Positions 2,560 through 32,699 of a stretch of DNA of 33,619 nt are shown piece after piece. Below the pieces are notes generated by a model. That model ran no database searches and was not told the origin of the DNA. It saw only the letters and a list, made by a program, of their open reading frames with translations. Source of the DNA: Acetobacteraceae bacterium. GTDB taxonomy: Bacteria; Pseudomonadota; Alphaproteobacteria; Acetobacterales; Acetobacteraceae. The stretch is from NCBI GenBank assembly GCA_027449745.1, contig DAIDKZ010000016.1:1-33619 (forward strand), given 5' to 3'. Numbering within the stretch: the stretch's first letter is position 1; each line of letters opens with the position of its first letter. The translations under genes were made by a program, and so were the position numbers.

Positions 2560-4142
2560 GACCCTTCGCCGCCCTGCTCGAACGGCTCGCTTTCACCCAC
2601 GCCCGCGGCGCCAAGCTCGCTCTGCTGCAGCGCTATTTCGCCGCCACGCCGGATCCGGACCGCGGCTTCGGCCTCGCCGCGCTCACCGGCGGGCTGCGCC
2701 TGGCGACGGCCAGGCCGGCCCAGATCCGCGCCCTCATCGCCGCGCGCACCGATCCCGAACTGTTCGCGTTCTCCTACGACCACGTCGGGGATCTGGCCGA
2801 GACGGTGGCGCTGATGTGGCCGGGCGGCAGCCCCGGCGGCGAGCCACCCGGCCTGGCCGAGGTGATCGGCGAGCTGGAGCGCGCCCCGCGCTCAGAGGTG
2901 CCGGCCCGGCTCGCCGCCTGGCTCGACCGCTGCGATGCCTCCGAGCGGCTGGCACTGCTCAAGCTCATCACCGGCGGGCTACGGGTCGGCGTCTCGGCGC
3001 GGCTGGCCAAGGTCGCGCTGGCCGGCCTCGGCGACGGGCGTGTCAGCGTCGAGGAGATCGAGGAGGTCTGGCACGCGCTGGCGCCGCCCTATGGCGCCCT
3101 GTTCGCCTGGCTGGAAGGGCGCGGGGAACGGCCCGATCCGGCCGGGGCACCGAGCTTCCGCCCCCCGATGCTGGCCCATCCGCTGGAGGCCGAGGATTTC
3201 GCCCGGCTCGACCTCGCCGATTATCGCGCCGAGTGGAAATGGGACGGCGTACGCGTCCAGCTCGCCGCCGGGCCGCGCGGGCGGGCGCTGTTCTCGCGCG
3301 GCGCGGAGGATATTTCCGCCGCCTTCCCCGACATCGTGGCCGCGATGGCATTCGCCGCCGTGCTCGATGGTGAGTTGTTGGTGGTGCGCGAGGGCGCGGT
3401 GGCGCCGTTCGCCGATCTCCAGCAGCGCCTCAACCGCAAGGCACCGTCGGCCCGCCTGCTCGCCAGCCATCCGGCCTGCGTGCACCTCTACGACATGCTG
3501 TTCGAGGGCGAGGAGGATCTGCGCGCGCTGCCCTTCGATGCGCGCCGGGCGCGGCTGGAAGCCTGGTTCGCCCGCGCCCGGCCGGCGCGGATGGCGCTTT
3601 CGCCGCTGGTGCCGGTCTCCGGCCGCGCGGCCCTGGCGGCATTGCGCGATGGCGCCCGTGAGGCCGGCATCGAGGGGCTGATGCTGAAGCGCGCCGACAG
3701 CCCCTATCTCGCCGGACGGCCCAAGGGGCTGTGGTGGAAATGGAAGCGCGCGCCGCTCAGCATCGACGCCGTGATGCTCTATGCCCAGCACGGCCACGGA
3801 AGGCGAGGCGGCCTCTATTCCGACTACACGTTCGGCCTCTGGCGCGATGATGGCGTGCTAGTGCCCGTGGGCAAGGCCTATTCCGGCTTCACCGACGCCG
3901 AGCTGACCTTTCTCGACCGCTGGATCCGCGCCCACACCGTCGCCCGCTTCGGCCCCGTCCGCGAGGTCGAGAAGGCGCTGGTGCTGGAGGTCGCGTTCGA
4001 TGCGGTGCAACGCTCGTCCCGGCATAAATCCGGCGTGGCGCTGCGCTTCCCCCGCATCAGCCGCATCCGCACCGACAAGCCGGCGGCGGAAGCCGATCGG
4101 CTCGCCACGCTGCTCCGCCTGATCGGGCCTGGAGACGATTGA
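2556..4142 (+). CDS. ATP-dependent DNA ligase, exonuclease-associated type
   Basis: This is a 528-residue nick-sealing ligase that forms an enzyme-AMP intermediate. The nucleotidyltransferase motif I is EWKWDGVR, with the adenylated lysine at about residue 228. Later motifs are visible as LDGELLV, EGLMLKR and WWKWKR, followed by an OB-fold C-terminus (VLVPVGKAYSG, LVLEVAFD). The N-terminal 200 residues form the DNA-binding domain of this class. ATG 2556 is chosen because it overlaps the exonuclease stop and the conserved N-terminus starts there. The same frame is open further upstream, but only antisense to or over the exonuclease gene. The helicase and PdeM partners do not follow; an unrelated aldolase does. 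Confidence 0.9.
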   Translation: MRPFAALLERLAFTHARGAKLALLQRYFAATPDPDRGFGLAALTGGLRLATARPAQIRALIAARTDPELFAFSYDHVGDLAETVALMWPGGSPGGEPPGLAEVIGELERAPRSEVPARLAAWLDRCDASERLALLKLITGGLRVGVSARLAKVALAGLGDGRVSVEEIEEVWHALAPPYGALFAWLEGRGERPDPAGAPSFRPPMLAHPLEAEDFARLDLADYRAEWKWDGVRVQLAAGPRGRALFSRGAEDISAAFPDIVAAMAFAAVLDGELLVVREGAVAPFADLQQRLNRKAPSARLLASHPACVHLYDMLFEGEEDLRALPFDARRARLEAWFARARPARMALSPLVPVSGRAALAALRDGAREAGIEGLMLKRADSPYLAGRPKGLWWKWKRAPLSIDAVMLYAQHGHGRRGGLYSDYTFGLWRDDGVLVPVGKAYSGFTDAELTFLDRWIRAHTVARFGPVREVEKALVLEVAFDAVQRSSRHKSGVALRFPRISRIRTDKPAAEADRLATLLRLIGPGDD

Positions 4143-4198
4143 CCGCAGCGCGCCGGCGTGATGCGCTGATGCCAAGCAGAAACGAGGGGAGCAGCGCC

Positions 4199-4981
4199 AT
4201 GACCATCATTCCGAACCATGCCTTGCGCACGCTGCGCTCCGGCGGATTGGCGCTCGGCCTCGGCGTGCACCATCTGCGCACCGCCGCGACCGCCATGCTG
4301 GCCGCGGCCGGGGACTTCGACTGGCTGTTCATCGACACCGAGCACGGCGCCTTCTCGGTGCACGAGGCGACGCAGCTCTGCCTGGCGGCGTTGCCGACGC
4401 GGGTGAGCCCGATCGTGCGCATCTGCCACGACGCGCTGGATGAGGGCACGCGGGCGCTGGACAACGGCGCCATGGGCATCGTCGTGCCGCACGTCGATAC
4501 CGCGGCGCAGGCGCGGCGCATCGCCGAGGCTTTCCGCTTTCCGCCGCTCGGCCATCGGTCCTGGGGCGGACCGCCCGCGATCTACGGGTTTTCTCCCCCG
4601 GACGCGGCGATCGCCCAGGCCGAGATCAACCGCGAGATCATGACCATCGCCATGATCGAGACGCCGCTCGCGGTGGAGAACGCGGACGCCATCGCCGCCG
4701 TCGAAGGGATCGACGTGCTGATGTTCGGCACCTCCGACCTCACCGCCGAAATGGGCATTCCGGGTCAGATCGGCCATGAGCGGGTGCAGGCCGCCTATGC
4801 CGGCGTCGGCGAAGCCTGCCGCCGGCACGGCAAGTTCCTCGGCATGGGCGGCGTCTATGACCGCGAATGGGCGGGACGCTACCTCAAGATGGGCGTCCGC
4901 TTCGCCCTCGGCGCCGGCGATCACGGGCTGATCCTGGCCGGCGCGAAGGAGCGCTCCGCCTTCCTGCGCGCGCTGCTCTAG
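4199..4981 (+). CDS. HpcH/HpaI-family aldolase (class II pyruvate-aldolase fold)
   Basis: The 260-residue protein matches the HpcH/HpaI aldolase/citrate-lyase family, metal-dependent enzymes that cleave 2-keto-hydroxy acids to pyruvate plus an aldehyde. Family landmarks are FIDTEHG at about 45-51, GIVVPHV, SWGGPP, MIETPLAVEN (with the metal-binding Glu) and GTSDLTAEMG (with the metal-binding Asp). The length is normal for the family (about 250-265). ATG 4199 follows a clear GAGGGGAG ribosome site. A TTG at 4139 in the same frame would add an unrelated N-terminus and is rejected. The stop codon TAG is the TAG of the first CTAG of the palindromic element that starts at 4978. The physiological substrate cannot be read from sequence. 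Confidence 0.85.
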   Translation: MTIIPNHALRTLRSGGLALGLGVHHLRTAATAMLAAAGDFDWLFIDTEHGAFSVHEATQLCLAALPTRVSPIVRICHDALDEGTRALDNGAMGIVVPHVDTAAQARRIAEAFRFPPLGHRSWGGPPAIYGFSPPDAAIAQAEINREIMTIAMIETPLAVENADAIAAVEGIDVLMFGTSDLTAEMGIPGQIGHERVQAAYAGVGEACRRHGKFLGMGGVYDREWAGRYLKMGVRFALGAGDHGLILAGAKERSAFLRALL

Positions 4982-5106
4982 AGCACGGTCCGATCGGAAG
5001 GAATCATCCGATCGGACGGTCGTGCTCTAGAAACCATATGATTAGAGCAACTTTGCCCGATCAGACTGACCGCGAAGCGGTTCAGTCTGATCGGACGTTG
5101 CTCTAG
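4978..5106 (+). repeat. Composite palindromic element, copy 1 (hairpins A and B)
   Basis: Two long hairpins lie in tandem. Hairpin A (4978-5030) has arms starting CTAGAGCACG and ending CGTGCTCTAG, an eight-base loop containing GGAATC, and a 3-base asymmetry in the right arm. A spacer (AAACCATATGA) follows. Hairpin B (5042-5106) starts TTAGAGCAAC, ends GTTGCTCTAG, has a GAA loop and a T-rich bulge in the left arm. A second copy lies inverted at 32570-32699. The element separates the aldolase from ispF and may terminate both. It resembles intergenic mosaic elements of other bacteria (BIME/RIME class), but I cannot assign it to a named family. Confidence 0.9.
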
Positions 5107-31968: not shown

Positions 31969-32074
31969 CTAGAGTCTGTCCGCCGCAGGCGGAATCGCCG
32001 GAGGCGGATAAACAGACGCGTAAACAAGGAGCTAGAGTCTGCCAGCGCTTCAATGAAGCGCTGACAGACTCTAG
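31969..32074 (+). repeat. Palindromic elements C (31969-32035) and D (32032-32074)
   Basis: Element C is 67 bp, begins CTAGAGTCTG and ends GGAGCTAG. Inside, GTCTG...CAGAC and TCCGCC...GGCGGA pair with a four-base AT-rich bulge. It matches an inverted copy at 32507-32573 in 62 of 67 positions by my hand alignment. Element D is a hairpin with two 20-base arms (one mismatch) and an AAT loop; its arms also begin CTAGAGTCTG, overlapping the end of C by four bases. Confidence 0.85.
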
Positions 32075-32506: not shown

Positions 32507-32573
32507 CTAGCTCCTTGTTTACGCGTCCGCTTGTCCGCCTCCGGCGATTGCGCCTGCGGCGGACAGACGCTAG
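32507..32573 (-). repeat. Palindromic element C', inverted copy of element C
   Basis: Read on the minus strand it begins CTAGCGTCTG and ends GGAGCTAG, with five differences from element C in 67 positions. It shares its terminal CTAG (32570-32573) with the neighbouring composite element. It interrupts the TSUP gene without breaking the reading frame. Confidence 0.88.
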
Positions 32574-32699
32574 AGCAACCTCCGATCTGACCGAGCCGTT
32601 CCGGCTCGGGCCGATCGGAGATAAGTTGCTCTAGCCATTATGGTTTCTAGAGCACGACCGTCCGACCAGATGATTCCATCAGGTCGGACCGTGCTCTAG
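32570..32699 (-). repeat. Composite palindromic element, copy 2 (hairpins B' and A')
   Basis: This is the inverted partner of 4978-5106. On the minus strand hairpin A' (32699-32647) comes first, then the spacer AAACCATAATGG, then hairpin B' (32634-32570). Ends and loops match copy 1: CTAGAGCACG...CGTGCTCTAG with GGAATC in the loop, and CTAGAGCAAC...GTTGCTCTAG with a GAA loop. The stem tips differ but remain mostly paired. Confidence 0.9.

Follow-up and report, generated by a model that had tools for sequence, protein, structure and literature searches.

A two-hairpin intergenic repeat carrying a CcrM site in Acetobacteraceae is very probably a non-coding MITE of the IS630/Tc1-mariner group

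The window analysed here, a stretch of 33,619 nucleotides from an Acetobacteraceae bacterium, is one contig (C16) of a 3.3-Mb draft genome (262 contigs, 93% complete). With the neighboring IspF protein as query, most matches came from Acetobacteraceae, with identities of up to 86%. The window carries two copies of a short element made of two long hairpins. Copy 1 lies on the forward strand at 4978..5106, between convergent genes. It directly follows an aldolase-like ORF (4139..4981, forward strand), whose TAG stop codon (4979..4981) is formed by the TA on the left of the element and the first G of the element itself. Copy 2 lies on the reverse strand at 32570..32699. The original prediction had proposed that a single two-hairpin unit occurs twice in opposite orientation, with lengths of 129 and 130 bp, and that the asymmetric bulges, the loop of hairpin A (GGAATC) and the start of the spacer (AGAAACCATA) are kept in both copies. 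All of this holds: the coordinates agree, the copies align with 83% identity over 129/130 bp, and the bulges consist of 3 nt in the 3' arm of hairpin A and 4 nt in the 5' arm of hairpin B. The two copies fold with z scores of -11.7 and -10.7 relative to dinucleotide shuffles, none of which (0/200) was as stable. The element proper has 123-124 bp and is flanked by a duplicated TA, with a linker of ~18 bp joining palindromes A and B. In copy 1, which reads C-TA-(4981..5103)-TA-G, hairpin A takes up 47 bp (4981..5027), the linker TAGAAACCATATGATTA follows at 5028..5044, and hairpin B spans 59 bp (5045..5103). Copy 2 proper covers 32573..32696, with hairpin B at 32573..32631 and hairpin A at 32650..32696, both on the reverse strand.

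The window also contains members of a second family of two-hairpin, CTAG-bounded elements (GTCTGTCAGCGC... / ...CGGCGATTCCGCC...), with a GANTC in one loop, which we call type 2. One lies on the forward strand at 31969..32074 (element proper 31972..32071), has TA ends and, counted from the left one, carries GAATC at bp 21-25. Another, partial, at 32507..32572, directly abuts copy 2, which sits at its CTAG end.

We used a covariance model of the composite, built from an alignment of its copies (A3), to search the draft genome and the family. The genome holds 46 full-length copies and further partial ones; the element is thus short, multicopy and dispersed, as MITEs are. The oriented copies are almost identical to one another, as after a recent spread. 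Hairpins A and B also occur alone (A in contig C27, L150; B in C80, L151), as the original prediction had anticipated. It was right that the repeat is mobile and spreading, with a mostly intergenic location, and the many dispersed copies, here and in relatives, rule out a single local duplication. Related composites were found in 46 of 150 Acetobacteraceae genomes (36 of 102 genera), many of which have ~20 or more copies of ~130 bp. In representatives from other genera the stem sequences differ, while the bulges, the TA ends and the order A-linker-B are retained. Of two sister genomes, G002 has dozens of copies with up to 98% identity, and G001 has older, diverged ones. The element has no match in Rfam, and in plasmid records neither it nor the G001 variant gave a match (two blastn searches).

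The hairpins are conserved as structures. Since the RNAalifold structure of the A3 alignment misses most of the stem of B, we used a hand-written structure on a gapless alignment (A5). Among its 33 distinct copies, 16 base pairs change on both sides, and the covariation score of the hairpins was 0.190, against 0.097 in shuffled alignments (0/500 reached it) and a maximum of 0.112 when the partners were slid.

How does the element insert? We deleted the elements in silico and looked for the resulting joined flanks in the sister genomes; the copies of G002 were treated reciprocally. This revealed empty orthologous alleles with a single TA in G001, in G002 and, reciprocally, in G000, where the filled alleles have a TA on either side of GAGC...GCTC. 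For example, the empty allele GGCGACGTAGGCCGG of G002 faces GACG-TA-element-TA-GGCCGG at L006. Further empty alleles read CAGTCTAGCC in both G001 and G002 (L004), GCCTAGCGAA in G000 (L246), CCCTAGTG in G001 (L245), GGGTAG in both genomes (L249) and CCATTAAGG (TTAA, L028), the last of which is probably a stop codon. The empty allele is CTAG at L004, L005, L030, L245 and L246, and TTAG at L023. Among 119 parsed copies, TA is present at the left end of 100 and at the right end of 110. The left flanks are CTA in 91 cases, TTA in 5 and GTA in 1, and the right flanks TAG in 100 and TAA in 9, which gives a preference for CTAG at 91/100 left ends having TA and at 100/110 right ends. Several copies have outer bases that differ from one side to the other (G-TA..TA-G, T-TA..TA-G, C-TA..TA-A); wherever the empty allele is known, it has the same bases. 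Because they vary independently on the two sides, the duplication comprises 2 bp (TA), not 4: the outer C and G derive from the target, and TA is duplicated on insertion at CTAG-like sites. Insertion 3' of a TA by an element that itself ends in TA would produce the same sequence, and the choice between these two descriptions rests on the variation of the flanks at both ends. TA is absent from ~7 of ~20 empty alleles (CCAG, CTGG, CTTG/CTCG and others); mutation may explain these cases, since most are a single base away from CTAG.

Copy 1 illustrates the process. It is inserted at the TA of the aldolase stop codon, and the orthologous site of G002 is empty (GCTGTAGCCC). The first base of the element is G, so that TAG is recreated when it inserts at this TA. 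In G001 (L197, L171), the same stop-codon TA holds a third type of two-hairpin element, of ~110 bp and with GAATC at bp 21-25. Related families thus reuse one site.

The loop of hairpin A contains GAATC, an instance of GANTC, the site of the CcrM methyltransferase (5001..5005 on the forward strand in copy 1; 32672..32676 on the reverse strand in copy 2). GANTC lies at exactly bp 21-25 from the outer end in 98 of 112 parsed A hairpins; within this genome, 36 of the 37 that were parsed have GANTC in the A loop. In the window as a whole the motif is avoided 2.8-fold (46 occurrences vs 130 expected from dinucleotide shuffles). The genome encodes a CcrM orthologue with a RAMA domain, which matches PDB 6pbd with an E value of 2.6e-145 and scores 607 bits against the NCBIfam CcrM model, below that model's cut-off of 830.

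The ends of the element point to IS630. We identified IS630 ends as TA-flanked inverted repeats around the transposase. IS630 is present in 101 of the 150 genomes of the family, including four matches in G002. The ends of these copies are largely GAGC..., and their target and flanks are those of the hairpin element, with CTA (26) and TTA (7) on one side and TAG (27) and TAA (7) on the other. Such a pair is present in only 4 of 216 other loci. IS630 subgroups whose ends are of another kind were left out of the end analysis; one of these, with ends of the form ATA|CCAA..., has a GACTC in its transposase-side end, at bp 19-23 (L421, L422, L425). From 34 distinct upstream ends of the GAG type we built a matrix of 26 bp, which includes no hairpin element, and scanned both strands of the window (~67,000 positions). 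The ends of the type-1 element, i.e., copies 1 and 2, rank 1, 2, 3 and 7. The top match is hairpin A of copy 2, the second the outer 26 bp of hairpin A of copy 1. The right outer end of hairpin B of copy 1 (from 5103, reverse strand) ranks third, and it ranks first with the matrix of downstream ends. Ranks 4 and 9 are the two ends of the type-2 element at 31972-32071.

The genome itself provides a further comparison. It contains a left-end remnant of IS630 (401 bp, L032 2865-3265) that is 93.5% identical to an IS630 of G002 and contains GAGCGTTTTCCGACCTGATGGAATCG. Of the first 25 bp of this remnant, 21 are identical in hairpin A of copy 2, with an uninterrupted run of 17 (TCCGACCTGATGGAATC). 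Nothing else in the window matches the remnant end as well as the two A ends do (21/25 and 18/25, with a background of 16); at bases 5-8 of the ends, the remnant is unlike the element. Apart from the truncated remnant, no match to the DDE_3 (IS630) domain was found in this draft, which is 93% complete; hence, the acting transposase is not seen in this genome. Across the 150 genomes, 34 have both the repeat and IS630, 12 only the repeat, 67 only IS630 and 37 neither; this association is not significant (P = 0.35), although IS630 is very common. That the sequence next to a 1454-bp IS of L032 might be one half of a similar palindrome was rejected, as it is the left end of the IS630 remnant. The 1454-bp IS (L032 1412-2865) immediately adjoins the CTAG end of this remnant, the only trace of IS630 found in the genome.

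A new observation is that GANTC occupies the same position in the transposase-side end of IS630 as in hairpin A. Among the Acetobacteraceae elements, it lies at bp 21-25 of the upstream end in 28 of 34, with A, C, G or T as the variable base, and at the other end in only 1 of 34. In other alphaproteobacteria, it is found there in 9 of 10 resolved IS630 elements, including ISRm2011-2 and ISRm10-1. The IS630 elements of Nostoc and Planctomyces have no GANTC at bp 21-25; the contrast with other phyla consists of these two alone, the ends from Piscirickettsia, Calothrix and two from Bradyrhizobium being unresolvable. The first 80 bp of IS630 contain 27.6 GANTC per kb vs 0.58 in the remainder, and additional sites lie around bp 32 and bp 55. 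None of the control motifs was as enriched in these 80 bp, the largest enrichment being that of TCNGA (11.8 vs 2.3). In hairpin A, the conservation of the variable base is too uneven to demonstrate that methylation is under selection in the MITE itself; the argument for such selection is stronger in the IS630 ends, where this base can be any of the four. Our literature search for GANTC in IS630 ends found no paper, which is no proof of absence.

Taken with the anatomy of the element, the matrix ranks and the match of the remnant to the A ends make it very probable that the element is a non-coding MITE of the IS630/Tc1-mariner group with the build of a CIR repeat. RIME1 of rhizobia, reportedly described by Osteras et al. 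in 1995 as an intergenic, multicopy element of an alphaproteobacterium, of ~108 bp and with two large palindromes, resembles it in these respects. The likeness to ISRm2011-2 and ISRm10-1, of the IS630 family of Sinorhizobium meliloti, extends to GAGC ends, TA flanks and GANTC at bp 21-25 on the transposase side; unlike the gene-less element described here, they are autonomous and have 1.04-1.05 kb. The original prediction knew of no named family with this pairing of hairpins. A named kind of repeat with this pairing exists: according to Delihas 2007 (PMC2229807), the CIR repeats of Chen and Shapiro 2003 (CIR1-CIR4) are CcrM-associated intergenic repeats of alphaproteobacteria, of ~110 bp, in which a linker joins two long inverted repeats, the loop of one arm holds a GANTC, and the termini are TA. 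Judged by this published description, our element likewise has two inverted-repeat arms joined by a linker, TA at both termini and GANTC in the loop of one arm; it differs in its host family, Acetobacteraceae, and in being slightly longer. By mechanism, the nearest case is RUP of Streptococcus pneumoniae, of ~107 bp, which targets TA and was proposed to be a MITE of IS630-Spn1, with similar ends and moved in trans (PMC2229807). Our element would share with RUP the TA target and the mobilization by an IS630 transposase, whereas its sequence is unrelated, no GANTC has been noted in RUP, and such non-CIR elements are stem-loops of their two ends, without arms or linker (PMC2229807). The 2007 review left the mobility of CIR repeats unexplained, described their target duplication as unknown, called for more information on their mobility and asked about the origin of their CcrM site (PMC2229807). 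The present CIR-type case now provides empty sites, shows that TA is duplicated, and has IS630 as a candidate parent, in which the CcrM site is equally distant from the end.

Other explanations fit these observations less well. The genome encodes several transposases of the IS5 type, and two of its insertion sequences, of 860 bp and 1454 bp, are flanked by CTAG, so that the repeat could be a MITE of another transposase targeting TA or CTAG, e.g., of the IS5/IS427 group. We regard this as very unlikely and reject these elements as the parent: their inverted repeats (GTCCTGTGGAC and GCAGCTTGTCGGG) are unlike the ends of the repeat, which IS630 ends match far better, and they use as landing sites the CTAG at the ends of hairpin elements (L014, L033) or of the IS630 remnant (L032). 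The 860-bp element, with ends GTCCTGTGGAC and flanked by CTAG (right flank of L014; L033 1-861), borders on GCTCTAG at both loci, as would result from its insertion at a hairpin element's end. Less probable again is the interpretation suggested by the original prediction, a mosaic of the REP/BIME type whose hairpins are mobilized in single-stranded form by a RAYT (Y1) transposase. The two hairpins with conserved bulges, the tandem copies and the lone hairpins speak for it, and BIME/REP elements are likewise intergenic palindromic repeats with a mosaic organization. However, the linked REP-associated tyrosine transposase that the prediction suggested looking for is missing from the 93% complete draft, where a profile search for Y1_Tnp (RAYT/IS200) gave 0 matches, and we do not class the element as a BIME or REPIN. 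Moreover, transposition by Y1 enzymes leaves no target duplication, whereas here TA is duplicated at CTAG-like sites with target-derived outer bases, and the ends match those of IS630, a DDE transposase.

The least probable of these alternatives is a domesticated element whose copy number is kept by selection for a host role, as a bidirectional terminator, an mRNA-stability hairpin or a CcrM-dependent site. The hairpins are stable and covary, copy 1 lies between convergent genes, and GANTC is otherwise avoided in the window, as would suit such roles. Yet a constraint at the DNA level can also make palindromes covary, and descent from IS630 ends explains the GANTC. In addition, the sister species (~95% identity in the flanks) have copies at different loci, with empty alternatives, as expected of a spreading element.

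If the element is indeed an IS630 MITE, the outer arm of hairpin A would derive from the transposase-side end of IS630 (IRL) and that of hairpin B from the opposite end. The latter arm likewise resembles IS630 ends, although its assignment to the downstream end is weak. Mobilization would occur in trans: an IS630 transposase would bind to the ends of the element, excise it and insert it at TA, preferably within CTAG, and CcrM methylation could regulate the process. The presence of a CcrM site in both the element and IS630 hints that transposition may be timed to DNA replication. In such a mechanism, the GANTC cluster of the transposase-side end (at about bp 21, 32 and 55) would become hemimethylated after replication, and this could switch on the transposase gene, the binding of the transposase, or both. 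Dam control of IS10 is a parallel for such a link between methylation, replication and transposition, and the present case would be a possible alphaproteobacterial counterpart. We see about an even chance that CcrM gates IS630 transposition in alphaproteobacteria in general, and that the CIR-type repeats across the class are MITEs of these elements with a GANTC inherited from the IS end.

The terminal CTAG of existing elements is itself a site of insertion. Tandem arrays of two or three composites share single CTAGs (L155 983-1237; L248 409-801), as expected if one copy inserted into the terminal TA of another. The CTAG of type-2 elements (found at L151, L030, L005 and L016, and in the window at 31969-32074 and 32507-32572) is also often the exact insertion point of a type-1 element or of a lone B hairpin.
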